Source: Anaerolineales bacterium (GTDB lineage Bacteria > Chloroflexota > Anaerolineae > Anaerolineales > Villigracilaceae). From it: a DNA stretch of 64,000 bases. Positions 19,049-54,301 of the stretch are shown piece after piece; within the stretch, counting starts at the first letter, position 1; each line of letters begins with the position of its first letter. Position numbers and translations under genes: made by a program. The stretch covers positions 1 to 64,000 of the forward strand of contig JACZJC010000074.1 in the NCBI GenBank assembly GCA_014860745.1, written 5' to 3'. The notes under the pieces are model-generated. The model did no database searches and was not told the DNA's origin. It saw only the letters and a list, made by a program, of their open reading frames with translations.

Positions 19049-19966
19049 CTAGCGAAGGGTTAGATAGTTCGCGATGGCGGGTTCGATTTCAGTTAGTTGG
19101 GTGATCTCAGAAAAACCACGACGGGCATTGGAATCCCCAATAACCAGAAGAGGTACTTTGGCATCCGTGTGCTTTCTTGTCGATAGATCTTCCATATTCC
19201 CATGGTCGGACGTGACCACGATCAGGCCTTCTTCCGCTTGCCACGCTTCGAGCAGCCCTTTCAACACTGAATCAAATGTCTCCAATTGTCGGGTGGCCCA
19301 ATCCATATCCTGTTTGTGGCCGGCGTAATCGCTGGCCCAGTATTCGAAGAAGGAAAAATCATATTGCCCGGCGAGTTCACCAAGCTTGTTCCCTGCAGCC
19401 TCAGGCTTAAAGACAGGGGCATCGGGAATGCCGAGAAATTCACGCCAGCCTTCGCCCGTGAAATCTGCGGCGAGAGCTTTGCCTTCGTAATAATCTTTGT
19501 CGGTGAAAAGGGAGATTCCCGCGTTCGTCAACGCGAGGGGAATGGATGAATACAAGCGTTTGCCTGAATCGATTCCATCAAAGTAGCGCGGGGGATAGGC
19601 ATTAAGCAGGGCAGCTTTTTTGCCGGCCTTGACCGTCTTGGAAAATAATGTGGCTCCGTTCAAATACTTTGCAACTTCCGGGTTGGGTTTCGGCCCATAG
19701 TGGTAGCCGAGCTCGGCAGGGATGTTGATTCCTGTGAGCAAAACGGCTTGACCTGTGGCGGATTGCGGCAAGCCTTTTACGCCAAGATTGGGGTCTGCTG
19801 CAATCAATGAAAGATGTTCATTTTCAAAAGGCGCAGTTTCGTTGATTAGTTTTTTACCGCCAAGCAAAGATTCCAGATATGGCATGTTCGCGCGCGCGAA
19901 AGGATTGGTCTCCGTGTTGTTTTCGCCGAGGCCGATGCCGTCAAGGAAGAGGAAGAGGATTTTCAT
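19049..19966 (-). CDS. Alkaline phosphatase-superfamily metalloenzyme
   Basis: 305 aa. The N-terminal metal-binding Asp is in FLFLDGIGLG, and the C-terminal part has VTSDHGNMEDLSTRKHTDAKVP, the DHG.....H pattern shared by cofactor-independent phosphoglycerate mutases, phosphopentomutases and related hydrolases. The chain is much shorter than iPGM (~510) and lacks its inserted domain. LPQSATGQAVLLTG supplies the likely Ser/Thr nucleophile region. A phosphomutase or phosphohydrolase role is likely; the substrate is unknown. No clear ribosome binding site at the ATG. Confidence 0.75.
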   Translation of the reverse strand: MKILFLFLDGIGLGENNTETNPFARANMPYLESLLGGKKLINETAPFENEHLSLIAADPNLGVKGLPQSATGQAVLLTGINIPAELGYHYGPKPNPEVAKYLNGATLFSKTVKAGKKAALLNAYPPRYFDGIDSGKRLYSSIPLALTNAGISLFTDKDYYEGKALAADFTGEGWREFLGIPDAPVFKPEAAGNKLGELAGQYDFSFFEYWASDYAGHKQDMDWATRQLETFDSVLKGLLEAWQAEEGLIVVTSDHGNMEDLSTRKHTDAKVPLLVIGDSNARRGFSEITQLTEIEPAIANYLTLR

Positions 19967-20050: not shown

Positions 20051-20620
20051 TCACGAATTTTTTTGGTAAAGGAACCATGCCGAAGGACGATCTTGTTTAT
20101 CGAAACCATCTTTGCGGGAGATCAGGGTCAAGCCGCGGGTTGGGATCATGTCGATTTCGGAGTGGGCAAGCCCGGGTCCGGGAAGAAGCGGGTCAGGCTT
20201 GAAGAACCCGTACATGAGCCAGAATCCGCCGGGGACGAGGATGCGGGTCAGTTGAGTCAAATAATCCGCTTTGTTTTGAATACCATGAAAACAACCGATG
20301 TCCAATGCCAGCTCAAATGGACCGGATACTTTTTTCATGCGAGTTGCGTCGTCGGTGAAAACATCGGCCTGAATGCCGGCCTGTCTTATTTTCCGTTTTG
20401 CAATTTGAACAGCGCGGAAGGCGAAATCAAAACCCGTCACTTGCCAGCCTGCATTTGCAAGCGTGATTAGGTTCGTGCCGGTGCCGCAGCCGATATCGAT
20501 GGCGCGCGCGGCGGGGTGGCTTGAGATAAAGTCGTAAAGCTCCGGCGGGCTCATGCCGCTGTCCCAGGGCGCTTTCTTAAAATAAGAGAGGTTGAATTTT
20601 AGACGACGGAGGAGATTCAT
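20051..20620 (-). CDS. Class I SAM-dependent methyltransferase, coupled to the UxxC protein
   Basis: 189 aa. Motif I is AIDIGCGTGTNLITLA with the acidic end of strand 2 in GFDFAFRAV; the post-I to motif III region has DVFTDDATRMKK and LALDIGCFHGI. The N-terminal PWDSGMSPPEL segment is typical of small soluble methyltransferases of the TPMT/TehB-like kind that act on small thiol or chalcogen compounds; this sub-assignment is inference. Its ATG overlaps by four bases the stop of the upstream reading frame that runs through an in-frame UGA, so its translation should depend on ribosomes completing that frame. Confidence 0.8.
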   Translation of the reverse strand: MNLLRRLKFNLSYFKKAPWDSGMSPPELYDFISSHPAARAIDIGCGTGTNLITLANAGWQVTGFDFAFRAVQIAKRKIRQAGIQADVFTDDATRMKKVSGPFELALDIGCFHGIQNKADYLTQLTRILVPGGFWLMYGFFKPDPLLPGPGLAHSEIDMIPTRGLTLISRKDGFDKQDRPSAWFLYQKNS

Positions 20621-21099
20621 TGAATTGAGTCGCGCACCTTTTGCGGGTCGAGTCCGCCAATGTCGCGCCAGAGTTCATTTCCCTGCGCATCGAAGAAGAT
20701 GAAGGTAGGCGTAAATTCAAAACCATAAACCGGGGCAAGTTCCATGCCGGTTGTTTCCTGAATGTTCAGGCGGATGATGTGGATCTGACCGCCAAGTTCT
20801 TTTTCGAGCTCGTCAACGACGGGCTTAATCGCGGTGCAGCCAATTCAATAGGGCGATTGAAATTCCAGCAGAACCGGCGTACCCGCGCCGATCATCGCTC
20901 TTACTTTTTTGGCATCGTCCATGAGGGGCGTCTGGCGCGGATGCAGGATGCCCCAGGCGGTAAAGAGCGCCGCGACGATCACTCCGAAAGCAAGATAGTC
21001 GTTCCATCTTGGTTTGTTGGTCAGCAGGATGAAGCCCGCCACGAGTGCCAATCCGACCGCGACCGTGAGGAACGAATATTGGTTGGTGATTAAGTTCAA
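20617..21099 (-). CDS. Membrane-anchored thioredoxin-like protein with an in-frame UGA (putative selenoprotein, UxxC)
   Basis: 160 codons if the UGA at 20847-20845 (codon 85) is read as selenocysteine. TTG start at 21099, with GAGGA five bases upstream. Two hydrophobic helices span ~8-26 and ~34-50; then comes a thioredoxin fold. Strand PVLLEF is followed by QSPY-U85-I-G-C88-TAIKP, which aligns UGA with the first Cys of CxxC. After it, VDELEKEL, HIIRLNI and FTPTF (cis-Pro131) complete the fold. The stop at 20617-20619 overlaps the next gene as ATGA. TGA is an ordinary stop elsewhere in the window. Read literally, the protein would end after 84 aa, just before its active site. A disrupted Cys codon (TGY to TGA) is the alternative. 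Confidence 0.75.
20807..20825 (-). promoter_or_regulatory. Candidate bacterial SECIS hairpin after UGA
   Basis: On the mRNA, nt +20 to +38 after the UGA can form AGC-c-CGUC / GACG-a-GCU: seven pairs and one C-A mismatch around the loop GUU. The loop starts with G and lies 27 nt after the UGA, within the 16-37 nt window described for bacterial SECIS elements. Short loop and hand fold, so moderate support. Confidence 0.5.
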
Positions 21100-21201
21100 T
21101 CTATCCTCGTTGACGTTTTTTAGGAATTAACTGGGGCATGTACGACTGTCGCAGGCAGAGCATGCTGAAAATGTCATGTTTTATCCGTGACGCTTCACAC
21201 T

Positions 21202-21230
21202 TTGACAATTCAATTGAGTTCTTTTACAAT
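21202..21230 (+). promoter_or_regulatory. Sigma70-type promoter of the EF-G2 gene
   Basis: TTGACA (21202-21207), 17 bp, TACAAT (21225-21230). The ribosome binding site AGGAAGGG (21260-21267) and ATG 21276 follow. Confidence 0.8.
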
Positions 21231-21275
21231 CGTGCAACGCTTTACATCCTACATCTTATAGGAAGGGCTTTTTCG

Positions 21276-23357
21276 ATGAAAGAGTATACCACCGAGTTTC
21301 TTCGCAACGTTGCGCTTGTGTCGCACGGAGGGGCAGGCAAGACGATGTTGGCGGAGGCATTCCTTCACGCAACGGGGGCAACCACCCGCCTCGGCAAGGT
21401 TGAGGACGGAACGACGGTTTCTGACTATGATGATGAGGAAAACCGTCGAAAAATATCCATCTATTCCAGTGTCATTCCCATTGAGCATCGCGATCACAAA
21501 ATAAACGTAATCGACGCGCCAGGCTACACCGATTTTGTAGGCGAGATGATCTCCGCCTTGAGTGTGGCGGATGGCGCGATCCTTTTAGTGGATGCGGTGG
21601 CCGGCATCGAGGTCGGCACAGAGGTTGCCTGGCTCCATGCCGACGAATTCAATCTGCCCCGCTTCGTGGTCATCAACAAGATGGACCGCGATAATGCCGA
21701 TTTCGAAAAAACCTATGCGGCCATCGAAGAATTTGTGCGTTCGCACGGCAAGCGCGCTTTACAGGTCCACCTGCCAATTGGCTCGAAACATGAATTCAAA
21801 GGTGTGGTGGATATCATTGGCATGAAAGCCTATATGGGAGACGGCAAGACCACGGCGGAAATCCCTGCTGACTTAAAAGATGCCGCAGAAAAAGCCCACT
21901 TTGCACTTGTGGAAGCGGCGGCTGAGGGCGAAGACGAGTTGATGGAAAAATACCTCGAGAACGGCTCTCTCACGGACGATGAGATGGTGCGCGGATTGGA
22001 AGATGTCGTCTACGCTGGATCATTTGTCCCTGTGTTCTGCGCCGCGGGCGGACGTGAAATCGGTACAATCGCCCTGCTCAACGATATCATCGACTTGCTG
22101 CCCTCTCCATTAAATGCTCCGAAACGCAAAGCTCAGGGGAAAAACGGTGAAGAAGAATTGAAACCCTCGGATACTGAGCCTTTGGCCGCTTATACCTGGA
22201 AGACCACCGCAGATCCATTCGTCGGCAAAATGACCTACTTCCGTATATTCTCCGGTTCCATCCAGTCGGATGCGCATGTGTGGAATCAAAATAAAAGCGC
22301 CGATGAGCGTATGGCTGGCCTGCATTTTCAGCGTGGCAAGGAAGTGATTCCCACGAAGATCGTCCATGCCGGTGATATTGCGGCTGTTTCAAAGTTGAAT
22401 GCCACCGCCACCGGCGATACCTTTTGCGAGAAGAATCATCCGCTTACGATTGCGCCGCCGAATTTCCCCGCTGCGCTATACCGCGTTGCGATCACACCCA
22501 AAACCCAGGCCGATGCCGCCAAGATCACCCCGACCCTGACCCGCCTGTGCGAAGAAGATATGACCCTCTCATGGCAGAATGACCACATCACGCACGAGAC
22601 GGTGTTACAAGGCATGGGAGACCAGCACATTGATGTGGCGTTGCATCGCGCGCAGGCGAAATTTCAGGTAGGTCTGGTTACGCACGAACCGAAGGTCCCA
22701 TACCGGGAGGGGATTACCCGCAAAGCCTCTGCCCAATACCGTCACAAGAAACAATCCGGCGGAGCAGGCCAGTTCGGCGAAGTCCACCTCCGCATCGAGC
22801 CCCTGCCCGGTGGAGAATTTGAATTCGCCGACGAGCTGGTGGGCATGAACCTGTCCCGTTCCTATCTGGCTCCCATCGAAAAAAGCATCCGCGCTACCAT
22901 GGAGCGCGGTGCATTTGCCGGCTATCCCATGAGTAATGTAAAAATCATCGTCTTTGACGGCAAGGAACACGAGGTGGATTCGAAACCGGTCGCATTTGAA
23001 ATTGCTGGAAGGGAAGCTTTCAAGCTCGCCGTGCAGGATGCTGGCCCCGTCTTGTTTGAACCGATCATGAACGTGCGCGTCACCATCCCGGATGCGAACA
23101 TGGGCGACGTGATGAGCGACATCAACACCCGCCGCGGAAGGGTGCAAGGCACGGATTCCGAGCATGGCAGCACGGTCATAGTGGCGCATGTGCCCATGGC
23201 TGAAATGCTGCGCTACACCACCCAACTCCGCTCCATCACCGGTGGACGGGGCTACTTCACAATGGAATTCGACCATTATGAAACCGTTCCCAATCATATC
23301 GCCGGGGCGATCATCGAAGCGCATAAAAAGGAAATGGAAGCCAAGAAGGAAGAGTAA
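21276..23357 (+). CDS. Elongation factor G-like GTPase (EF-G2 type)
   Basis: 693 aa from ATG 21276, behind AGGAAGGG. The full EF-G domain order is present: the GTPase domain with P-loop SHGGAGKT (16-23), DAPGYTDF and NKMD, the beta-barrel domain II, domain III, domain IV (YRHKKQSGGAGQFGEVHLRIEP) and domain V ending RGYFTMEFDHYE. The P-loop GGAGKT differs from the AHIDAGKTT of the main EF-G and matches the EF-G2/FusA2 paralog group, as does its location away from rpsL-rpsG-tuf genes. Its precise role in translation or ribosome recycling is unsettled for the group. It stands alone, with its own promoter and terminator. Confidence 0.88.
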   Translation: MKEYTTEFLRNVALVSHGGAGKTMLAEAFLHATGATTRLGKVEDGTTVSDYDDEENRRKISIYSSVIPIEHRDHKINVIDAPGYTDFVGEMISALSVADGAILLVDAVAGIEVGTEVAWLHADEFNLPRFVVINKMDRDNADFEKTYAAIEEFVRSHGKRALQVHLPIGSKHEFKGVVDIIGMKAYMGDGKTTAEIPADLKDAAEKAHFALVEAAAEGEDELMEKYLENGSLTDDEMVRGLEDVVYAGSFVPVFCAAGGREIGTIALLNDIIDLLPSPLNAPKRKAQGKNGEEELKPSDTEPLAAYTWKTTADPFVGKMTYFRIFSGSIQSDAHVWNQNKSADERMAGLHFQRGKEVIPTKIVHAGDIAAVSKLNATATGDTFCEKNHPLTIAPPNFPAALYRVAITPKTQADAAKITPTLTRLCEEDMTLSWQNDHITHETVLQGMGDQHIDVALHRAQAKFQVGLVTHEPKVPYREGITRKASAQYRHKKQSGGAGQFGEVHLRIEPLPGGEFEFADELVGMNLSRSYLAPIEKSIRATMERGAFAGYPMSNVKIIVFDGKEHEVDSKPVAFEIAGREAFKLAVQDAGPVLFEPIMNVRVTIPDANMGDVMSDINTRRGRVQGTDSEHGSTVIVAHVPMAEMLRYTTQLRSITGGRGYFTMEFDHYETVPNHIAGAIIEAHKKEMEAKKEE

Positions 23358-44185: not shown

Positions 44186-44318
44186 CATGACCCAATACCA
44201 TCAATTGGTCGCTTTCCCTCGCGGGGTTTACCAGGGTAGGTGTTGGCGAGTAAAGCAGCGAAACCGGCCGTAAGTCGATTTGCTGCTTTTTTAATTTAGA
44301 CCTTGGTATTGCTTCATG
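44186..44318 (+). ncRNA. Riboswitch-like or attenuator leader RNA of the giant adhesin
   Basis: A 15-nt inverted repeat (44186-44200 / 44304-44318, 13 of 15 paired) encloses two competing structures. Antiterminator-like: GCTTT-cc-CTCGC (44211-44222) with GCGAG-t-AAAGC (44246-44256). Terminator-like: AAAGCAGC (44252-44259) with GCTGCTTT (44282-44289), then six T. They share AAAGC, so only one can form. The strand upstream belongs to a gene on the opposite strand, so the terminator can only serve this leader. Class not recognised; c-di-GMP-I consensus blocks are not convincingly present. It could also be a free-standing small RNA of about 130 nt. Confidence 0.55.
44252..44292 (+). terminator. 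Intrinsic terminator inside the adhesin leader
   Basis: Long hairpin: AAAGCAGC / GCTGCTTT, then AAA / TTT and CGGC / GTCG above a bulge and mismatch, followed by TTTTTT (44287-44292), about 80 bases before the adhesin start. Confidence 0.7.
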
Positions 44319-44368
44319 ACAGAAACTTGGATTTTATTTTTTCTAAATCTTACAAAGGACTATTGCTC

Positions 44369-47300
44369 ATGTTGAGATCATTGCGTTTTGTGTTCCTGAT
44401 CCTTGTTACGATTGCTTCGCTGGTCCTCGGGCCGGTGACCCCGGCCCGGGCTGCAACCCTGCCGGCTGAAATCAACAAGCAGTTTACTCCTCTGCAAATC
44501 GACGCGGGCGGCACATCGGTCTTGAGAATATCCATTTTCAATCCGAATACCTTCCAATTAACCAATGTGGCTTTCACCGACAACCTTGTCCGTGTGCAGC
44601 CCGGCCTTTTTATCGATACTCCCAACGGTTTGGTGAACACTTGCAATGGCACAGTAACAGCCTTGCCAAATTCATCAACGATTTCGCTGGCCAATGGGAT
44701 GGTTCCTGCCCAGACGGGTTCAACTCCGGGGCAATGCTATATTGAAGTCAACGTCTCCTCCATTACTTCAGGAAATATAATAAATACAATTCCGGCGCAT
44801 AATCCCCCGGCGGATATTGGCCTCACGGCGAATGGTATCGACGGTGTTACTCCGGTAACTGTTACAAATACTTCTCCCGCCAGCGCTACGATTACGGTCA
44901 TTGCGGTTTCTCCGCCTTCTCTTACCAAATCCTTTGCGCCAAATACAATTTTTGTAGGGGATGTGAGCGTGTTGACGATCCGTATTAATAACAATGATGT
45001 GGATACGAATTTGACCGGGGCAACTTATACCGATACACTACCCACTGGTTTGCAGGTTTCAACACCGGCCAACATCACCCGCACGAACTGCGGTGCTGGA
45101 AATGTGGTCAATGCGCCATCAGGCGGCACGACCATCACGCTTACGAATGCAACGATCACGCCCAGCCAGGATTGTGTTGTCACTTTGGACGTGCGCGGGG
45201 TGACGTATGGCCAATATACCAATACCATCCCGGCGGGTCCCGCCAATCCGGGTTCACTGCAAACAGACCAGGGTGTCACCAATGGCAGCCCGGCAAACGC
45301 CAACCTGAATGTTCAGCCGGTTGGGGTTACCAAATTATTTTCTCCAACGACCATCGACGCCGGGGATACCACCACGTTGACAATTACCCTGGAAAACCCG
45401 ACCAACACCCCGCAAGTTGTTACTAGTGTGTTGGATACCTTGCCGGCAAACTTAACAATCGTCGGTTCCCCCACCACTACATGTGGCGGAACGGTTTCCT
45501 ATGATCCTACGCCTCCGGCGAGCTGGGTTTTCACTGGCGCGACGATTCCTGCCAGTGCCAGCCCACCTACTCCAAATACCTGTACTATCACTGCTGACCT
45601 CCAGGCGGATTTGACTGCCAGCGGTAACCGTACGAATACGATCCCTGCCAACTCGGTGATCACTGGCACACCCGGTTTCACAAATTATCTGGCAACCTCC
45701 AGTACGGTTACGATCAATCCGGCGCTGACCGGGTCAAAGGCATACGCTTCACCGTTTGCCATTGCATTAGGCGGCACAAACCTGGTGACGATCACGTTGA
45801 ATAACAACAGCTCCACGGCTTTCACCGATGTTGATTTTACTGATACTTTGCCGGGGGCAACACTAGGTGATTTGACAGTCTCCAACACACCAGCGCCACC
45901 AGCTACCACCTGCGGAACCGGTACGGTTTCTAATACGGCCACAACGGTAACCCTTACAAACGGGACCATCGCAGCAAATTCCTCCTGTACCATTACTTTT
46001 TATGTAACGAGCACGGTTCCCGGTAGCGGGTCGACCTATGAAAATGTGATCCCCGCCAATGATATTACTGCATGTACGGCGGCCTTGGGTTGTGTAGGAA
46101 ATGGTTCAAACATAACCACCGGCACCGATTTGACCGTGGTCAACGCTCCGCAGTTACCAGTTACGGTGGCCAAATCATTCAGCCCTGCTACAGTGGCGCC
46201 GGGACAGGCCAGCCGTCTCCGTCTTACTATCACTGCGCCACTGGATATAGCGGTTTCTCAAATTAGCATAACAGATGTGTTGCCAACTGGGATGGTGGTT
46301 GCTCCAAATACTCCTCCGATTCCTGCCCCAACCGATAACTGTCCAGGCGGAACCCTGGTCGCCAACCCAGGTGATACTTCGATTACTTTTTCGAACCTGG
46401 TGGGGAATGTCCTGAATGCCGGCGCTTCATGTAATATCGATGTCTATGTGGTCGTTGCTAACCCAGGTAGTTATGACAACCTTGTCCCCGCAAATACCGT
46501 GACCACCTCGCAGGGGCGGACAAACTCGTTTGACAGCAACACGGCCACCCTGCGTGTGACCAACATGAACATGAGCAAGGCATTCTATCCGACACTTGTG
46601 CAGGCAAATGGCGTTTCCACGCTCACGATCACATTGGAAAATACATTCACGCAAGCGTTGACAAATGTTTCAGTGACTGACGATCTTCCAGCCACTAATG
46701 CCAACAATCGTCTCATTGTCGCGCCTACTCCCAATGCTTCCACCACCTGCGGTGGCACGTTTATACCAAACGCCGGTGATGCCACTCTCACTTTGACTGG
46801 AGGTACCATCCCTGCCCAAAGCGGCGGTGTTCCCGGGATTTGTACGATCAATGTGGATGTGCAAGGCCTGGATTCCTCCCCAGCTTCACAAAGCACTCAA
46901 ACCAATACAATTCCGATTACAAGTGCAAGTGGATTTATCGCCAGCCTCGGTATCACCGTCAATCCCACCCTTCCCGCTCAGGCGGTGTTGACGATCCGTA
47001 ACTTAAGCATTGGCGTAGTAAAGGGGTTTAATCCTGTGCTTGTTTATGGTGGTGCCACCTCAACCATGACGGTGCAATTAATCAACCCTGAAAGTACCAC
47101 ATTAACCGGTGTAATGTTTACAGACAATATGGCATTACTCAGTTCGGGCATCATCCTCGCGAACCCGCCTGATTTCAATACAGGCACCTGTGGCGGTACA
47201 CTGACCGGCAACCCGGGTGATTCCTCCTTCTCCTTCAGCGGCGGGACGATCCTGCCCAATTCCAGTTGCACTTTGACGTTATCTGTAGTGATGAATGTCA

Positions 47301-50300
47301 ACGGCAATCGTACCAACCGCATTCCTGCGGGTGCGGTAACAACCCTGAGTGGCGTTAGCAGCACCCAGGCAACGGAGGCATCGCTAACCAACCTGCCCGG
47401 TGTAAGTGTAAACAAGGTGTTCAATCCCAATCCTGTTCAAATTAACCAGGTTTCCACGCTCACGATCAATATCACCAATACAAGCAGTATTCCAGTGGTC
47501 AACATGAGGGTGGAAGATAATCTTCCCGGCACACTCCCTGATGGTGTGGAAGTGGCAAACCCACCGAATGCAACTACAACCTGCGGAACGCCTCCGACCA
47601 CCACCTTGAGCGCAGTGCCAGGCTCACAATCCATCGTACTCACAGGTGGCAATATCGCAGGGAATGCATCCTGCCAGATTTCTGTGGATGTTGTCAGTAC
47701 TCGCGCAGGACTTTATGTCAATACGATTCCGGCGGGCGCTCTGACGGCGGATGGCGGCATTTCCAATAATAACCCTGCGACTGATTCACTTACCGTTGGA
47801 ACTCTCTTCAGCCTTGGGAATCGCGTCTGGTTTGATACAAACAATAACAGTCTGATCAGTTTGGGCGAATTGGGCGCGGATGGAGTGGTTGTACAGTTGT
47901 ATGCCGCTGACGGAGGCGGGCTTCCGACAGGACCGGTGCTCGGCACACAGACCACCAGTTTTGGCGGTTATTACCGCTTCGATAACCTGCCCGAAGGCGA
48001 TTATGTAGTCGTTATCCCGGCCGATAATTTCCGTAATGTGGGTCCCGGTGACCTCGCTCCAAGCAACCCGTTGGCTGGTTACTGGAGCAGTGGCACGATC
48101 CTCTCTGGAGGTTCCACCACCGAACCCCCTGCTCCTGACCCCGATGATGATCTCGATAATACAGATAATGGAACCCTGCAAACCGGTCCAGCATTTACCG
48201 GCGCAGTGATAAGTGGCGCAATTACGCTTGGCACAAATGCCGTACCCGCCGAGCCGACCGATGATGACGATGCGCCGGTTCCCAACCCGTTCGGTGAAGC
48301 GGTCGACAACCGCAGTAACCGCACGGTTGATTTCGGCTTCTATCAAACGGCAATTGGCAACCTGGTCTTTGTGGATGCAAACTCAAACAACACATACGGT
48401 GGCGCTGATACCCTGCTTCCGGGAGCAATCGTCCAATTGTTTGCCAGCGATGGGACAACAGAGATCAATGTCGGGCCGGACGGCATATTTGGCACAGATG
48501 ACGATCAACCCGGCGGCGTGGTAACTGGCTCCGACGGCCTTTATGCACTCTCTGGCTTGCCCGAAGGTGACTACATCGTTCGGGTTACGCCTCCGGCGGG
48601 ATATCAAAGCACCGGCGACAGCAGCCCCAGCGATGTAAATGATCCTGACTTTAACATTGACAACAATGACAATGGCATTGGCAATGCCATTGGCCCGTTA
48701 AGCAGCAGCAGCGGCGTGTTGACCATGGATGCAGGTGAAACAGGCACGAACATCATAGTGACGAACAGCACCGGAACAACCAATGATCTTAGTGTCGACT
48801 TTGGTTTCGTTTCTATTTCCTACAGCCTGGGTAACCGTGTTTGGTTCGATGACGGTACGGGCGGCGGCATACCAAGTGATGGCATCCGCAACGGCGGTGA
48901 ACCCGGCATTGATGGCGTTACTGTCAATCTGTACCGCGACTCGGATAATAATGGCACCCCTGATGGAGGGGTCATCGCTACAATGCCCACTTCGGGCGGC
49001 GGCTACTATCGCTTTGACAATCTCACTGCAGATACCTATATCGTCGAAGTCGTTCCTCCTACAGGCTATGTCAGCACGGTGGATGCGGGTGACCCGGATA
49101 CCGATGTCGATGACAATGATGATAACGGCGTGGTTATCTCTGGTGCCAACATTCGCAGCAACCCGGTCACACTCGGGCCGGGCAGCGCTGAACCCACTGG
49201 CGAAACCGATCCAACTACCAACCCGGAAGCAGGGGAGGCGCCCGATAATCGCAGCAATCGCACCGTCGACTTTGGCTTTGTAACGGTTTACAGCCTTGGC
49301 AACCGCGTCTGGTTGGACGATGGCTCAGGCGGTGGCGGAGCCAATGATGGCGTGCGCAACGGCAGCGAACCCGGCATTGACGGTATCACGGTCAACCTGT
49401 ATCGTGATTCAGACAATAACGGCATACCGGATGGCGGGGTCATTGCCACGATGCCGACTGCAGGCGGAGGATATTATCGATTCGATAATCTAGTCCCCGG
49501 AACCTATATTGTGGAAGTTGTTCCCCCGGCAGGTTATGGAAGCAGTACTGTGGATGCTGGAGACCCGGATATCGACGCAGATGACAACGATGACAATGGT
49601 GTCGTGATCTCCGGTACGAATATTCGCAGCAACCCGGTCACACTCGGGCCGGGAGGTTCTGAACCCACTGGCGAGACCGACCCGCTGACTAACCCTGAAC
49701 CTGGAGAAGCTGCCGACAATCAATCCAATCGCACGGTGGACTTTGGCTTTGTAACGATTTACAGCCTTGGAAACCGCGTCTGGTTCGACACGAACAATAA
49801 TGGTAGTGTCGATGTGGGCGAGGTGGGCGTTCCAAATGTGCGCGTGGAACTCTACCGCGACACCGGCACGACCCCCGGCATCTACGATGCGGGTGATGCC
49901 TTTGTGGGTTTCAGCAACACGAACGGAACAGGTTATTACCGCTTTGATGGACTTGTGGCCGGTGAATACGTTGTCGTCATTCCGCCGGATAACTTCCGGG
50001 ACCTGGGTCTGGGCGATACAGTCCTCGGGGATCCGCTCGCTGGATATTTGAGCAGCGGTTCATCCATCGCCGGAAATGGTTCTGTCACTGATAGTTTTGG
50101 TCCAGACCCGGACACCACAGTGCTGGATAATGATGATAATGGGGTGTCCACCTTCGTTAGCAACATCCTCGATTATGTATCAGCGCAGGCAGTGACTCTC
50201 GGACCCGGATCAGCCGAACCGACGGGCGAAGCGGATCCAACACCGAACCCGGGTGCCGGCGAATCGGTCGATAATCAAAGCGACCGCACCGTGGATTTCG

Positions 50301-53300
50301 GCTTTTATCGCCAGCAATTAAGCAACCAGATCTTCCTGGATTTGGATTCAGACGGCGTATTTACCGGAGCTGATACCCCACTGGCTGGTGCTATTGTGCA
50401 ATTGTATGCCAGCAATGGAACAACGGAAATTTTGGTTGGAACAGATGGCATTTTGGGAACATCGGATGATGGGCCAGGTGGTGTAACCACTTTAGCGGGC
50501 GGTACCTACCTGTTCAGCGGCCTGCCTGCAGGCGATTACGTTGTCCAGGTGACGCCTCCGGCCGGGATCAGCACGATCGACAGCGCCGATACAGCCACAC
50601 CAAATAATAATGTGGATAATAACGATAACGGCGTGGGGACCGCTGCCGGGCAAGCCTCCAGCAATCCAGTGACTCTCACGCCCGGCATTACCGGAGTCAG
50701 CACCACCGTAAATAACAGCAACGGTACCACTCTCAACCCGTCGCTCGATTTTGGCTTCAATCCCTTGTTCAGCCTGGGCAACCGTGTCTGGTTCGATACC
50801 GATAACAGCAGTACGATCAACGGAGCTGAAGTCGGCATTGATAATGTCCGCGTGGAGTTGTACCGCGACGATGGTTCCACGCCCGGCGTCTGGGACTCGC
50901 TGGATACCCCGGCCGGTTTTGATCTCACCGACGCGAACGGTTATTATCGCTTCGATGGATTGGATGCGGATGATTACGTGGTTGTCATTCCTTCAAGCCA
51001 GTTTGGCGCGGGTGGTCCTTTGGATCGATACTGGAGCAGCGGCACAAACATTGCCAATAACGGCACGGTGACCGACAGCACTTCCAACGACCCGGATAAC
51101 GATACAGACAGCGACGATAACGGGATCACGACCTTTGCTGGCAATAATATTAACTATGTCTCATCCCAGGCTGTCACCCTTGGCCCGGGTTTGAGCGAAC
51201 CGATCAACGACAACGACCCCACGACCAACCCGGAACCGGGCGAAGCGCCAAATGATCGGAGCAATCGCACCCTGGACTTTGGTTTCTATCGTGCAGAGTT
51301 GGGGAACCAGGTGTTCTGGGATATTAATACCGATGGCTTGTACGATGCTGGCGATGTGGTGATCCCAGATGCGGAAGTTCGCTTGTTCACCGGGGATGGC
51401 GTCACAGAAATCCTCGTTGGCCTGGATGGTGTTTTAGGCACCGCGGATGATGGCGCTGGCGTGGTAACCACTGCCCCGGATGGAACCTACCTCTTTGGAG
51501 GTTTGCCAGCCGGCAACTTCATCGTACGGGTGACGCCCCCTGCCGGGTTCGCCAGCACTGTGGATGTCAACGCCGATACCACCACCCCGAACAACAATAT
51601 TGATAATAATGATAACGGCGTGGGCACCGCAGCCGGGCAAGCCTCCAGTAATGTGGCCGCCCTAACACCGGGAAGTGTAAATGTAAGCAATATTGTCACC
51701 AATAGCACGGGTACCACACGCAATCCGTCGCTCGATTTTGGCTTTGTCCCCGACTCGAATCTCGAATTCAGCCTTGGGAACCGCGTCTGGTTTGACACGG
51801 ATAACAGCGGCGCGATCAATGGCTCCGAGATCGGCGTTGGAAATGTGCGCGTGGAGTTATACCGGGATAATGGAGGCACACCCGGCTTGTTTGATGCCGG
51901 GGATGCATTCGTCAACTTTACAACCACGGATGCAAACGGCTACTATCGCTTTGATAACCTGCCTGCCGGGAATTATGTGGTGGTGATCCCACCGAGCCAG
52001 TTCGGTTCCGGCGGAGCGTTGGATGGGTATTGGAATAGCGGCACCAGTATTTCCGCAAGCGGCGCCATAACAGATAGCATCAGCCCAGATCCCGATTCCA
52101 ATGCAACAGATAGTGATGATAATGGCGTCACCACCCTCGCAGGCAGCGTTCTGGATTATGTTTCATCAAGAGCTGTAACGCTTGGCCCGACCATCACAGA
52201 ACCCACCGGTGAGACTGATGCATTACCCAACCCGGCTCCCGGTGAAGAACCGGATAATCAAAGCAACCGTACTGTGGACTTTGGGTTTTATCGGCTTGAA
52301 CTGAGCAACCAGATTTTTGTGGATGTGAACAACGATGGAATCTTCAACGCTGGAGATTTGGACCTGGCCGGTGCCCGTGTACAATTGTTTGCAAGCAATG
52401 GAACCACCGAGATCAATGTCGGTGTTGATGGAATTTTAGGCACTGGCGATGACGGCACCGGCGGCATGGTGACAGGACCCGCGGGAACATACCTGTTCAG
52501 CGGTTTGCCCGCCGGGGACTATATCGTCCGCGTGACACCCCCAGCCGGTTACTTCAGTACTGTGGATGTAAACCCCGATACAGATACTCCCAATAACAAC
52601 GTCAACGACAATGATAACGGCGTTGGCATCGGAAGCGGGCAGGTTTCCAGCAATATTTTCTCGCTCGTTCCCGGAGTTGCAGGCCCAAGCACAACGGTTA
52701 TAAACAGCACCGGAACCACACTTAACCCGTCGCTGGATTTCGGGTTCAATACGACAAATGGTTTCCTTAAAACCATCGCCGGTACGAGCGAAACGTTTAC
52801 AGGGGGTGCAAACGTGGCGATTGGAGAAATCGTCACCTACCAGATCACAATTGACCTTGCCGCCGGCGTGCCGGTCAACAATGTTGTTGTCACCGACCGG
52901 ATGGATAAAGGCCTCGCGTTTGTAGATTGTCTCCTTGTGCAGGTAGATGGTACGGATGTGACGGGCACGGTTTGCCCACCCGCCGTTTCATCAATAACCG
53001 ATCCCGGCGATTTGGCAGGAAACCCGGCCAACCCGGGCAGGCAAGTCGTCTTTAACGTTGGGAACGTTGCAGCTCCAACTGCCGCCTCGAGCATTGTCAT
53101 CCGCTACCGCGCGATCGTACTGGATGTAATCGAAAACCAGGACGGTATTTCCCTGAACAATGCCGCCACCGTTACTTCATCTGCGGGCACACTCTCTTCC
53201 AGCGCTCCAAACGTAAATATCGTGGAGCCTGACCTCGCCATCGACAAATCCGCAATTCCGCAAAACAGTGTGCCAATCGGCACACCCATCCAATTTACAT

Positions 53301-54301
53301 TGGAGATCAATCATACATCCCCGCAAAGTACGGCAGATGCCTTTGACGTAGTCTTGACGGATGTCTTACCGCCCACACTTGAGTATATTCCGTGCAGTGT
53401 TACTTATAGTGGCCTGCCGCCAACAAGCCCCGCAACTCCTGCCTATTGCCCCGGAACGACAAACACCCTGACGTTCACCTGGGATGTCTTCCCGCGGGGT
53501 CAATCCGCGATGATCACATTTAGCGCGCGCCTCGTAGGCTCGCCGGCGACCAACGTCGCTTCCGTTTCGTGGACTTCACTTCCCATCGACCCCGGCATTA
53601 CCGGTCTTCCTGTTCAACTCTCAATCCATAATTCCGAATCCACAGAACGTTGGTATGACCCATTGGATGATGTTAATATTTACGCAACCCGGGACAGTGT
53701 CACGATCAATGACACAGATGCTGTCTTGGATGATGCGGGAGAATCTGTAAAACTACCCACCACATTACCCGCTACAGGCTTTGCTCCCGGTGTGGTCACC
53801 ACTTTGCCGGAACAGCCTGCGGACCTGGCCTATACAACCACCGGTGTGTGGCTTGAAATTCCAAGCATCGGCGTGACCATGCCGATTGTGGGAGTTCCCC
53901 TGGCAGACGGAGATTGGAATGTGTCCTGGCTGGCATCGGAGGCGGGTTGGTTGAATGGAACTGCATTCCCCGGCTGGAATGGAAACAGCGGCTTGACTGG
54001 TCATGTAACCCTGCCAAACGGCAAACCCGGGCCATTTACTAAATTAGGCAACCTCCAATGGGGCGACAAGATCATTGTCCATGCCTTTGGAGAGATCTAT
54101 ATTTACGAAGTACGCGAAAACCGTACGATCAAACCGTACAGCACCTCCGTGCTGCAGCATGAAGAAGAGGCCTGGCTGACGCTCATCACGTGCAAATCGT
54201 ATAACGAATCCACGAATACCTATGCTGACAGGATTGCCGTCCGAGCCGTGCTTGTAAAAGTACAAACGGAGACCACATCCAACCCTGTGGAAAAGCGATA
54301 A
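44369..54301 (+). CDS. Giant DUF11/SdrD-repeat surface protein with LPATG and a C-terminal sortase domain
   Basis: 3310 aa from ATG 44369 (AAAGGA nine bases upstream); a signal peptide ends near ARAA. Residues ~30-1146: eight DUF11-like repeats of ~125-150 aa, each opening with a K.F.P..I..G...L.I motif. Residues 1147-2790: ten SdrD B-like repeats of two alternating types (SLGNRVWFD and LSNQIF.D), with Asp-rich loops such as DDNDDNGV likely to bind calcium. Residues ~2795-3110: two more DUF11-like domains. LPATG lies at 3133-3137 without the usual hydrophobic helix and basic tail. Residues ~3155-3300 form a sortase domain: His3212 in TGHVTLPNG, Cys3275 in LITCKSY, Arg3288. Probably a stalk-like adhesin that joins substrate motif and transpeptidase in one chain. 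Confidence 0.85.
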   Translation: MLRSLRFVFLILVTIASLVLGPVTPARAATLPAEINKQFTPLQIDAGGTSVLRISIFNPNTFQLTNVAFTDNLVRVQPGLFIDTPNGLVNTCNGTVTALPNSSTISLANGMVPAQTGSTPGQCYIEVNVSSITSGNIINTIPAHNPPADIGLTANGIDGVTPVTVTNTSPASATITVIAVSPPSLTKSFAPNTIFVGDVSVLTIRINNNDVDTNLTGATYTDTLPTGLQVSTPANITRTNCGAGNVVNAPSGGTTITLTNATITPSQDCVVTLDVRGVTYGQYTNTIPAGPANPGSLQTDQGVTNGSPANANLNVQPVGVTKLFSPTTIDAGDTTTLTITLENPTNTPQVVTSVLDTLPANLTIVGSPTTTCGGTVSYDPTPPASWVFTGATIPASASPPTPNTCTITADLQADLTASGNRTNTIPANSVITGTPGFTNYLATSSTVTINPALTGSKAYASPFAIALGGTNLVTITLNNNSSTAFTDVDFTDTLPGATLGDLTVSNTPAPPATTCGTGTVSNTATTVTLTNGTIAANSSCTITFYVTSTVPGSGSTYENVIPANDITACTAALGCVGNGSNITTGTDLTVVNAPQLPVTVAKSFSPATVAPGQASRLRLTITAPLDIAVSQISITDVLPTGMVVAPNTPPIPAPTDNCPGGTLVANPGDTSITFSNLVGNVLNAGASCNIDVYVVVANPGSYDNLVPANTVTTSQGRTNSFDSNTATLRVTNMNMSKAFYPTLVQANGVSTLTITLENTFTQALTNVSVTDDLPATNANNRLIVAPTPNASTTCGGTFIPNAGDATLTLTGGTIPAQSGGVPGICTINVDVQGLDSSPASQSTQTNTIPITSASGFIASLGITVNPTLPAQAVLTIRNLSIGVVKGFNPVLVYGGATSTMTVQLINPESTTLTGVMFTDNMALLSSGIILANPPDFNTGTCGGTLTGNPGDSSFSFSGGTILPNSSCTLTLSVVMNVNGNRTNRIPAGAVTTLSGVSSTQATEASLTNLPGVSVNKVFNPNPVQINQVSTLTINITNTSSIPVVNMRVEDNLPGTLPDGVEVANPPNATTTCGTPPTTTLSAVPGSQSIVLTGGNIAGNASCQISVDVVSTRAGLYVNTIPAGALTADGGISNNNPATDSLTVGTLFSLGNRVWFDTNNNSLISLGELGADGVVVQLYAADGGGLPTGPVLGTQTTSFGGYYRFDNLPEGDYVVVIPADNFRNVGPGDLAPSNPLAGYWSSGTILSGGSTTEPPAPDPDDDLDNTDNGTLQTGPAFTGAVISGAITLGTNAVPAEPTDDDDAPVPNPFGEAVDNRSNRTVDFGFYQTAIGNLVFVDANSNNTYGGADTLLPGAIVQLFASDGTTEINVGPDGIFGTDDDQPGGVVTGSDGLYALSGLPEGDYIVRVTPPAGYQSTGDSSPSDVNDPDFNIDNNDNGIGNAIGPLSSSSGVLTMDAGETGTNIIVTNSTGTTNDLSVDFGFVSISYSLGNRVWFDDGTGGGIPSDGIRNGGEPGIDGVTVNLYRDSDNNGTPDGGVIATMPTSGGGYYRFDNLTADTYIVEVVPPTGYVSTVDAGDPDTDVDDNDDNGVVISGANIRSNPVTLGPGSAEPTGETDPTTNPEAGEAPDNRSNRTVDFGFVTVYSLGNRVWLDDGSGGGGANDGVRNGSEPGIDGITVNLYRDSDNNGIPDGGVIATMPTAGGGYYRFDNLVPGTYIVEVVPPAGYGSSTVDAGDPDIDADDNDDNGVVISGTNIRSNPVTLGPGGSEPTGETDPLTNPEPGEAADNQSNRTVDFGFVTIYSLGNRVWFDTNNNGSVDVGEVGVPNVRVELYRDTGTTPGIYDAGDAFVGFSNTNGTGYYRFDGLVAGEYVVVIPPDNFRDLGLGDTVLGDPLAGYLSSGSSIAGNGSVTDSFGPDPDTTVLDNDDNGVSTFVSNILDYVSAQAVTLGPGSAEPTGEADPTPNPGAGESVDNQSDRTVDFGFYRQQLSNQIFLDLDSDGVFTGADTPLAGAIVQLYASNGTTEILVGTDGILGTSDDGPGGVTTLAGGTYLFSGLPAGDYVVQVTPPAGISTIDSADTATPNNNVDNNDNGVGTAAGQASSNPVTLTPGITGVSTTVNNSNGTTLNPSLDFGFNPLFSLGNRVWFDTDNSSTINGAEVGIDNVRVELYRDDGSTPGVWDSLDTPAGFDLTDANGYYRFDGLDADDYVVVIPSSQFGAGGPLDRYWSSGTNIANNGTVTDSTSNDPDNDTDSDDNGITTFAGNNINYVSSQAVTLGPGLSEPINDNDPTTNPEPGEAPNDRSNRTLDFGFYRAELGNQVFWDINTDGLYDAGDVVIPDAEVRLFTGDGVTEILVGLDGVLGTADDGAGVVTTAPDGTYLFGGLPAGNFIVRVTPPAGFASTVDVNADTTTPNNNIDNNDNGVGTAAGQASSNVAALTPGSVNVSNIVTNSTGTTRNPSLDFGFVPDSNLEFSLGNRVWFDTDNSGAINGSEIGVGNVRVELYRDNGGTPGLFDAGDAFVNFTTTDANGYYRFDNLPAGNYVVVIPPSQFGSGGALDGYWNSGTSISASGAITDSISPDPDSNATDSDDNGVTTLAGSVLDYVSSRAVTLGPTITEPTGETDALPNPAPGEEPDNQSNRTVDFGFYRLELSNQIFVDVNNDGIFNAGDLDLAGARVQLFASNGTTEINVGVDGILGTGDDGTGGMVTGPAGTYLFSGLPAGDYIVRVTPPAGYFSTVDVNPDTDTPNNNVNDNDNGVGIGSGQVSSNIFSLVPGVAGPSTTVINSTGTTLNPSLDFGFNTTNGFLKTIAGTSETFTGGANVAIGEIVTYQITIDLAAGVPVNNVVVTDRMDKGLAFVDCLLVQVDGTDVTGTVCPPAVSSITDPGDLAGNPANPGRQVVFNVGNVAAPTAASSIVIRYRAIVLDVIENQDGISLNNAATVTSSAGTLSSSAPNVNIVEPDLAIDKSAIPQNSVPIGTPIQFTLEINHTSPQSTADAFDVVLTDVLPPTLEYIPCSVTYSGLPPTSPATPAYCPGTTNTLTFTWDVFPRGQSAMITFSARLVGSPATNVASVSWTSLPIDPGITGLPVQLSIHNSESTERWYDPLDDVNIYATRDSVTINDTDAVLDDAGESVKLPTTLPATGFAPGVVTTLPEQPADLAYTTTGVWLEIPSIGVTMPIVGVPLADGDWNVSWLASEAGWLNGTAFPGWNGNSGLTGHVTLPNGKPGPFTKLGNLQWGDKIIVHAFGEIYIYEVRENRTIKPYSTSVLQHEEEAWLTLITCKSYNESTNTYADRIAVRAVLVKVQTETTSNPVEKR

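Follow-up and report, generated by a model that had tools for sequence, protein, structure and literature searches.

The question raised by this locus is whether a TGA triplet inside a minus-strand reading frame is a premature stop or a selenocysteine (Sec) codon. An earlier note on the window (the whole 64,000-nucleotide stretch of DNA analysed) had claimed that the frame opening at TTG 21099 meets TGA at codon 85 and then continues unbroken for 75 codons, and that the TGA sits at the first cysteine of a thioredoxin CxxC motif, with an FTPTF motif downstream. Translation confirmed the first claim, giving 84 codons, the TGA, 75 sense codons and a terminal TGA. The second was borne out by a Pfam match and by structural alignments (see below); the UGA lies in the context PVLLEFQSPY-U-IGCTAIKPV, and FTPTF falls in the second half of the protein. 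We conclude that the UGA is almost certainly read as Sec. The features of the locus are collected in Table 1, where A3 is a 36-row protein alignment built on 35 loci (L052–L086; 33 TGA, 2 Cys). Most of these loci come from genomes already covered by the G set, and they were excluded from the count of 103 orthologues given below. An initiation codon (ATG, GTG or TTG) stands at the aligned TTG site in 60 of 101 orthologues, the remaining 2 of the 103 being too short to reach this position.

Table 1. Coordinates of the putative selenoprotein gene, its elements and its neighbours in the window
Feature	Position	Strand	Details
Selenoprotein gene, complete	20617..21099	minus	starts at TTG 21099, has UGA as Sec codon and ends at TGA 20619-20617; product of 160 residues, membrane-anchored and thioredoxin-like
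In-frame UGA, residue 85, first position of UxxC	20845..20847	minus	almost certainly read as Sec
Resolving Cys88 codon (UIGC)	20836..20838	minus	invariant across the 36 rows of A3
Pro131 of the FTPTF motif	20707..20709	minus	from sequence and alignment
SECIS-type hairpin	20808..20824	minus	5′ arm 20824-20818 GCCCGUC, loop 20817-20815 GUU, 3′ arm 20814-20808 GACGAGC
Possible Shine-Dalgarno GAGGA	21104..21108	minus	upstream of TTG 21099; sequence inspection
Two predicted transmembrane helices	20944..21069	minus	residues ~11-27 and ~34-52, positively charged linking loop; prediction
Class I SAM methyltransferase	20051..20620	minus	Methyltransf_25 2.4e-16; ATG overlaps the selenoprotein stop (ATGA)
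Metalloenzyme superfamily protein	19049..19966	minus	third cluster gene; weak similarity to iPGM and phosphopentomutase
EF-G-like GTPase	21138..23357	plus	divergent upstream neighbour, syntenic marker; profile match

The source genome (4.32 Mb in 82 contigs) was searched for selA, selB, selC and selD, the check that the earlier note had proposed, and all were present. The tRNA-Sec (selC) scored 68.5 bits, above the family cut-off, and was assigned a UCA anticodon by ARAGORN; selA and selB scored 546 and 347 bits, respectively. There are two selD genes (L048 in G000:C41 and L049 in G000:C2), both of which have an in-frame TGA in the motif CAGUASK.

We then compared the distribution of the decoding genes with that of the TGA gene across 201 genomes (the source genome and 200 relatives), where selB was above its curated cut-off in 167 and selA was found in 170. 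Both genes were present in 66 of the 76 genomes with a TGA gene, with one of the two in 9 and neither in 1 (G122). For the 24 genomes with only a Cys version of the gene, the corresponding numbers were 21, 1 and 2, and for the 101 genomes that lack a full orthologue they were 68, 17 and 16. Thus, selA or selB is above cut-off in 75/76 genomes with a TGA gene, and only 1 of the 19 genomes with neither carries one (Fisher p 0.002, ignoring kinship). The G122 assembly is in 640 contigs and has a possibly fragmentary selB match at 5.8e-49.

A protein search at E ≤0.001 gave matches in at least 199 of the 201 genomes. The weaker matches, many of which cover the thioredoxin domain only (mostly from residue ~60 onward), were taken as generic thioredoxins. 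Five such matches with TAA stops or similar (L222, L223, L224, L228 and L229) all have WCGPC with a Cys codon, as in ordinary thioredoxins. We examined 110 loci and kept the 103 in which the orthologue was full-length and the codon could be read. Those left out were L181 (internal deletion), L182, L183–L185 (partial or remnant) and L186–L187 (distant TGA relatives); L182 gave no tblastn match and was later recovered by profile as a Cys homologue.

The codon at the UGA site was TGA in 79 of the 103 full orthologues, TGC in 17 and TGT in 7, with no other codon observed. The alignment of homologues suggested in the earlier note therefore places the UGA on a redox cysteine, with Cys in 24/103 relatives. 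A sequencing error in one genome is not a reasonable account of this pattern. Among thioredoxin-domain relatives outside Chloroflexota (not orthologues; collected in a contig scan with the post-UGA half as query), Cys occupied the site at 21 of 21 loci. A scan of viral contigs found no relative.

None of the 103 full orthologues has a frameshift after the UGA, an event that the earlier note had named as evidence against recoding. Selection on the two halves was estimated from 45 same-length pairs of moderate divergence drawn from 16 sequences. After removal of 3 saturated pairs from the pre-UGA data and of 7 zero-dS pairs from the hairpin segment, 42 pairs were usable before the UGA, 38 in the hairpin segment and 45 after the hairpin. 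As the pairs share sequences, the resulting values are descriptive: median dN/dS was 0.136, 0.275 and 0.122, and median dS was 1.46, 0.19 and 0.96, in the same order. Restoring the zero-dS pairs left the median dS of the hairpin segment at 0.19, and we read its raised dN/dS as the product of suppressed dS. Purifying selection is thus similar before and after the UGA, with synonymous divergence depressed across the hairpin segment.

These data bear on the possibility that the gene is decayed, or the sequence or assembly wrong, in which case translation would end prematurely at the UGA and the frame beyond it would have survived by chance. Loss does occur among relatives: L181 (G075) has an internal deletion that removes the thioredoxin core, and L185 (G054, from the same genus) is only a remnant. 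The gene can therefore be lost. Nevertheless, a pseudogene or sequencing error is rejected for the window's own gene, because the TGA is shared by 79/103 orthologues and purifying selection persists downstream of it. In addition, a covarying SECIS-type hairpin (below) is found in the TGA set and is absent from the Cys set. We regard decay or error as having a negligible chance of being correct, and the earlier note's preference for recoding over decay is supported by the same three lines of evidence. Within the genus, 44 of 57 genomes (including our own) have a full orthologue among the matches listed and 13 are without one, which marks the gene as dispensable; of these 13, one has the remnant only and another has a copy broken by a contig end (G043).

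A 7-pair stem with a 3-nt apical loop that opens with G lies downstream of the UGA, its stem 20 nt and its loop 27 nt behind it. In the alignment, columns 24–30 pair with columns 34–40 around a GUN loop. The window's own hairpin has 6 of the 7 pairs and one C-A mismatch, which is common to 26 of the 79 TGA genes. Pair statistics for the TGA set (79 genes, 78 distinct rows) were compared with 500 shuffles. Here 86.3% of cells were paired, 35 cells had changed on both sides and covariation was 0.219, values equalled by 0/500 shuffles. Two other measures were weaker: only 3 pairs showed any double change (reached by 431/500 shuffles), and there were 8 further pair types (reached by 6/500). At columns 28/36, the TGA set has 64 G-C, 13 A-T and 2 G-T pairs (Fisher 4e-13, ignoring kinship). 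RNAalifold gave no consensus structure on the 79-row TGA alignment; the evidence for the hairpin consists of pair counts, controls and the folding of single sequences.

The Cys set (24 genes) behaved quite differently, with 36.9% of cells paired, which is at the shuffle level. At least 5 of the 7 pairs were present in 79/79 TGA genes versus 1/24 Cys genes, and the base preceding the loop was C in 79/79 versus 6/24. Relative to synonymous recodings, folding energy had a mean z of −2.05 in the TGA set, compared with −0.07 in the Cys set. In 25 TGA genes of the same length, the stem codons for Pro, Val, Asp and Gly/Glu were 85–100% identical synonymously, and the loop codon was 41% identical. This codon, the third base of which is the last base of the loop, is freer, being GTG in 41 TGA genes, GTT in 31 and GTC in 7. 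Some codons outside the hairpin also have high synonymous identity. The sole Cys gene of the 24 with a complete 7-pair hairpin is L150 (G071:C49), a TGC orthologue; this looks like a recent Sec-to-Cys change in which the SECIS has been retained as an apparent fossil.

If the UGA were instead bypassed by a near-cognate tRNA or under a variant code, Cys or Trp would be inserted and the protein would contain no selenium. A Cys reading would also work, since Cys is found at the site in the 24 orthologues noted above. However, the genome encodes the UCA-anticodon tRNA-Sec together with selA, selB and selD, and the hairpin has been conserved in step with the TGA state. Furthermore, TGA is an ordinary stop elsewhere, as the earlier note had held: it terminates 6 of the 34 non-overlapping ORFs of at least 200 aa in the 64-kb window, among them the ORF at 991–1818, which we take to be speE-like, and it also ends the selenoprotein gene itself. 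We therefore consider a selenium-free bypass highly improbable, and treat the product as a selenoprotein in what follows.

A tree of the orthologues (midpoint root, SH-aLRT support only) required 9 state changes at the UGA site, at least 4 of them forced by starred branches. Sec is found on the branch most distant from the clade of the window's gene, which suggests that Sec is probably the ancestral state and that Cys has been derived repeatedly.

To extend the comparison beyond the order, 251 genomes spread over the phylum were searched with a profile, which matched 52 at E 1e-10. Of 19 loci retrieved from beyond the order, 15 have TGA and 4 have Cys at the active site, and three more class members (L225, L226 and L227) also have TGA there. 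The TGA form of the anchored thioredoxin is common to many related Chloroflexota. When the hairpin was scored in a fixed register, at least 5/7 pairs were present in 15/15 first TGA copies and also in two Cys homologues (L197 and L182); only 4/7 were present in the second copies of L207–L209 and in the paralogue L187. In several distant TGA copies, an unconstrained search for the longest hairpin gave its best result outside the family register.

UxxS stands in place of UxxC in L212 and L214 (G288 and G400) and in the second copies of L207, L208 and L209 (G306, G230 and G270), the latter three each adjoining a UxxC copy. The motifs are UARS, UAKS, UASS and UGAS, so that these proteins would have Sec without a resolving Cys. 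Four more distant thioredoxin-like ORFs, L186 (G115:C302; FTUGTC), L187 (G159:C41; FYUTTC), L225 (G316:C55; HWUVSC) and L227 (G340:C6; PWUGSC), likewise have TGA in frame at this site of the active centre and probably represent further Sec-thioredoxin subfamilies.

With the TGA written as Cys, the protein matched the Pfam model Thioredoxin (PF00085) with 38.6 bits against a cut-off of 23.5. This match covers residues 73–140 and therefore spans the TGA. Thioredoxin_2 (PF13098) was matched with 34.5 bits against a cut-off of 27, and both models matched all 36 members of A3 at E ≤0.001. The equivalog model for thioredoxin, TIGR01068, was not reached (45 bits, cut-off 96.8), and none of the 13 NCBIfam models listed at E ≤1, selenoprotein models included, reached its cut-off. 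One of them, NF045694 (TsoB, rhodanese/DsbD fusion-like), gave a weak match of 10.8 bits to the thioredoxin-like part; its cut-off of 805 bits is far above this, and its 572-position profile describes another architecture.

An AlphaFold model (pLDDT 80.3, pTM 0.60) has helices at residues 2–27 and 32–52 followed by strands and helices in the thioredoxin order. The Foldseek matches listed were mostly thioredoxins, thioredoxin fusions or complexes, and the PDB matches listed comprised thioredoxins and a few protein disulfide-isomerases, with residue 85 on the first Cys of WCxxC. The protein therefore has the features of the thioredoxin superfamily: the fold, a CxxC-type motif and a Pro ahead of the following strand. 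Thioredoxin m and bacterial thioredoxins are soluble proteins. The solved examples (1fb0, 2puk and 4ulx) share the fold, the position of the Pro and the alignment of their first WCxxC Cys with residue 85; they have Cys preceded by W, whereas the selenoprotein has Sec preceded by Y/F. We take Pro131 to be in the cis state, as in the thioredoxin family.

The topology was predicted from charge counts. Over 102 orthologues, the loop between the two helices averaged 2.49 K+R, compared with 0.27 for the N-tail and 1.01 for the segment that follows helix 2. The positive-inside rule would place the charged inter-helix loop in the cytoplasm, and the thioredoxin domain is predicted to be extracytoplasmic.

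Taken together, these features very probably describe a selenoprotein with SelB-hairpin Sec insertion that acts as an extracytoplasmic UxxC exchanger, tethered by two helices, with a partner of the CcdA/DsbD or VKOR type. The hairpin, whose loop follows the UGA by 27 nt, would be bound by SelB carrying Sec-tRNA, leading to Sec insertion at residue 85, as the parts present suggest. The product would be anchored in the membrane through its N-terminal two-helix hairpin, with the thioredoxin domain outside the cytoplasm, and at the cell surface the UxxC pair may carry out fast thiol/selenol-disulfide exchange. Sec85 would attack first and Cys88 would resolve the selenosulfide, with Glu79 and Pro131 (positions taken from the alignment) presumably assisting catalysis as in thioredoxins. 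Electrons would most likely be exchanged with a membrane partner of the CcdA/DsbD or VKOR type; DsbD_TM and VKOR each have three matches above cut-off in the genome.

The protein is most likely an extracytoplasmic membrane-tethered UxxC thiol oxidoreductase, for which two directions of electron flow can be considered. Were it a DsbA-like oxidase rather than a CcdA-fed reductase, it would introduce disulfides into exported proteins and be reoxidized by a VKOR partner. The three VKOR-family matches and the predicted extracytoplasmic position of the domain are consistent with such a role. Against it, the thioredoxin profile scores above those of DsbE, ResA and DsbD, the best solved relatives are thioredoxins, and CcdA/DsbD-type matches are present in the genome as well. 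The oxidase is a possible but less favoured alternative, and a reductase seems the more likely of the two.

The gene is followed on the same strand by those for a SAM methyltransferase and a metalloenzyme, which together form a conserved cluster behind the selenoprotein. Within the flanks examined, a methyltransferase homologue lies downstream on the same strand at 75 of the 103 orthologous loci, the metalloenzyme gene lies downstream at 74, and the EF-G-like gene lies upstream on the opposite strand at 87. The methyltransferase is likely an operon partner of the selenoprotein gene. The ATGA overlap and the recurrence of the pair could also point to a joint function in metalloid or thiol methylation, with the thioredoxin supplying reduced substrate, and the methyltransferase is weakly similar to the TPMT, TehB and ArsM models. 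However, TPMT is barely over its cut-off (27 versus 26 bits) and TehB and ArsM are under theirs; 28/103 loci have no methyltransferase match within the flank examined; and, if the predicted topology is right, the two proteins would be separated by the membrane. We consider this function improbable, and the preferred reading remains that of a tethered thiol exchanger.

UxxC thioredoxins and thiol:disulfide interchange selenoproteins are both established entries in the parts of two reviews available to us (PMC13188914, PMC9312934). The Trx selenoproteins (UxxC, PF00085), as described in a table of PMC13188914, are alike in having a thioredoxin domain, Sec in first position of the motif and a resolving Cys; going by that table description, the present family is set apart by its two-helix N-terminal anchor and the predicted extracytoplasmic position of its domain. 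The thiol:disulfide interchange selenoproteins (UxxC, PF13098) of the same source are alike in their PF13098 match and redox UxxC. This match is generic, and taken as a sequence match it does not appear to imply subfamily identity with them. A two-helix-anchored subfamily was not found in the available portions of the two reviews. The main text of both contains no occurrence of ‘chloroflexi’, and that of PMC13188914 none of ‘chloroflexota’. Similarly, the accessible parts of the literature on selenoproteins of Chloroflexi, Chloroflexota and Anaerolineae held nothing resembling an anchored Sec-thioredoxin family.

Since no NCBIfam cut-off was reached and the literature was negative within this scope, we place the protein in a distinct anchored subfamily of the known Sec-thioredoxins. 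This placement is well supported, UxxC thioredoxin selenoproteins themselves being already known. On balance, we lean towards an uncatalogued Chloroflexota subfamily of Sec-thioredoxins that are extracytoplasmic and anchored by two helices, with Sec as the ancestral state, repeated derivation of Cys and, in some lineages, UxxS without a resolving Cys; ‘uncatalogued’ is meant as a limited claim.

As far as the available text of a 2006 survey goes, the phylum contributed 3 selenoproteins in 3 families (PMC1794560); the present protein adds a well-supported selenoprotein to it. The Sec, Cys and fossil-SECIS copies also provide a natural series in which to ask why Sec is kept or lost in a predicted extracytoplasmic thioredoxin. 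Gene prediction that takes this UGA for a stop codon would truncate the protein immediately ahead of its active site. Elsewhere in the window, a single ORF of 3332 aa occupies positions 44303–54301 on the plus strand.
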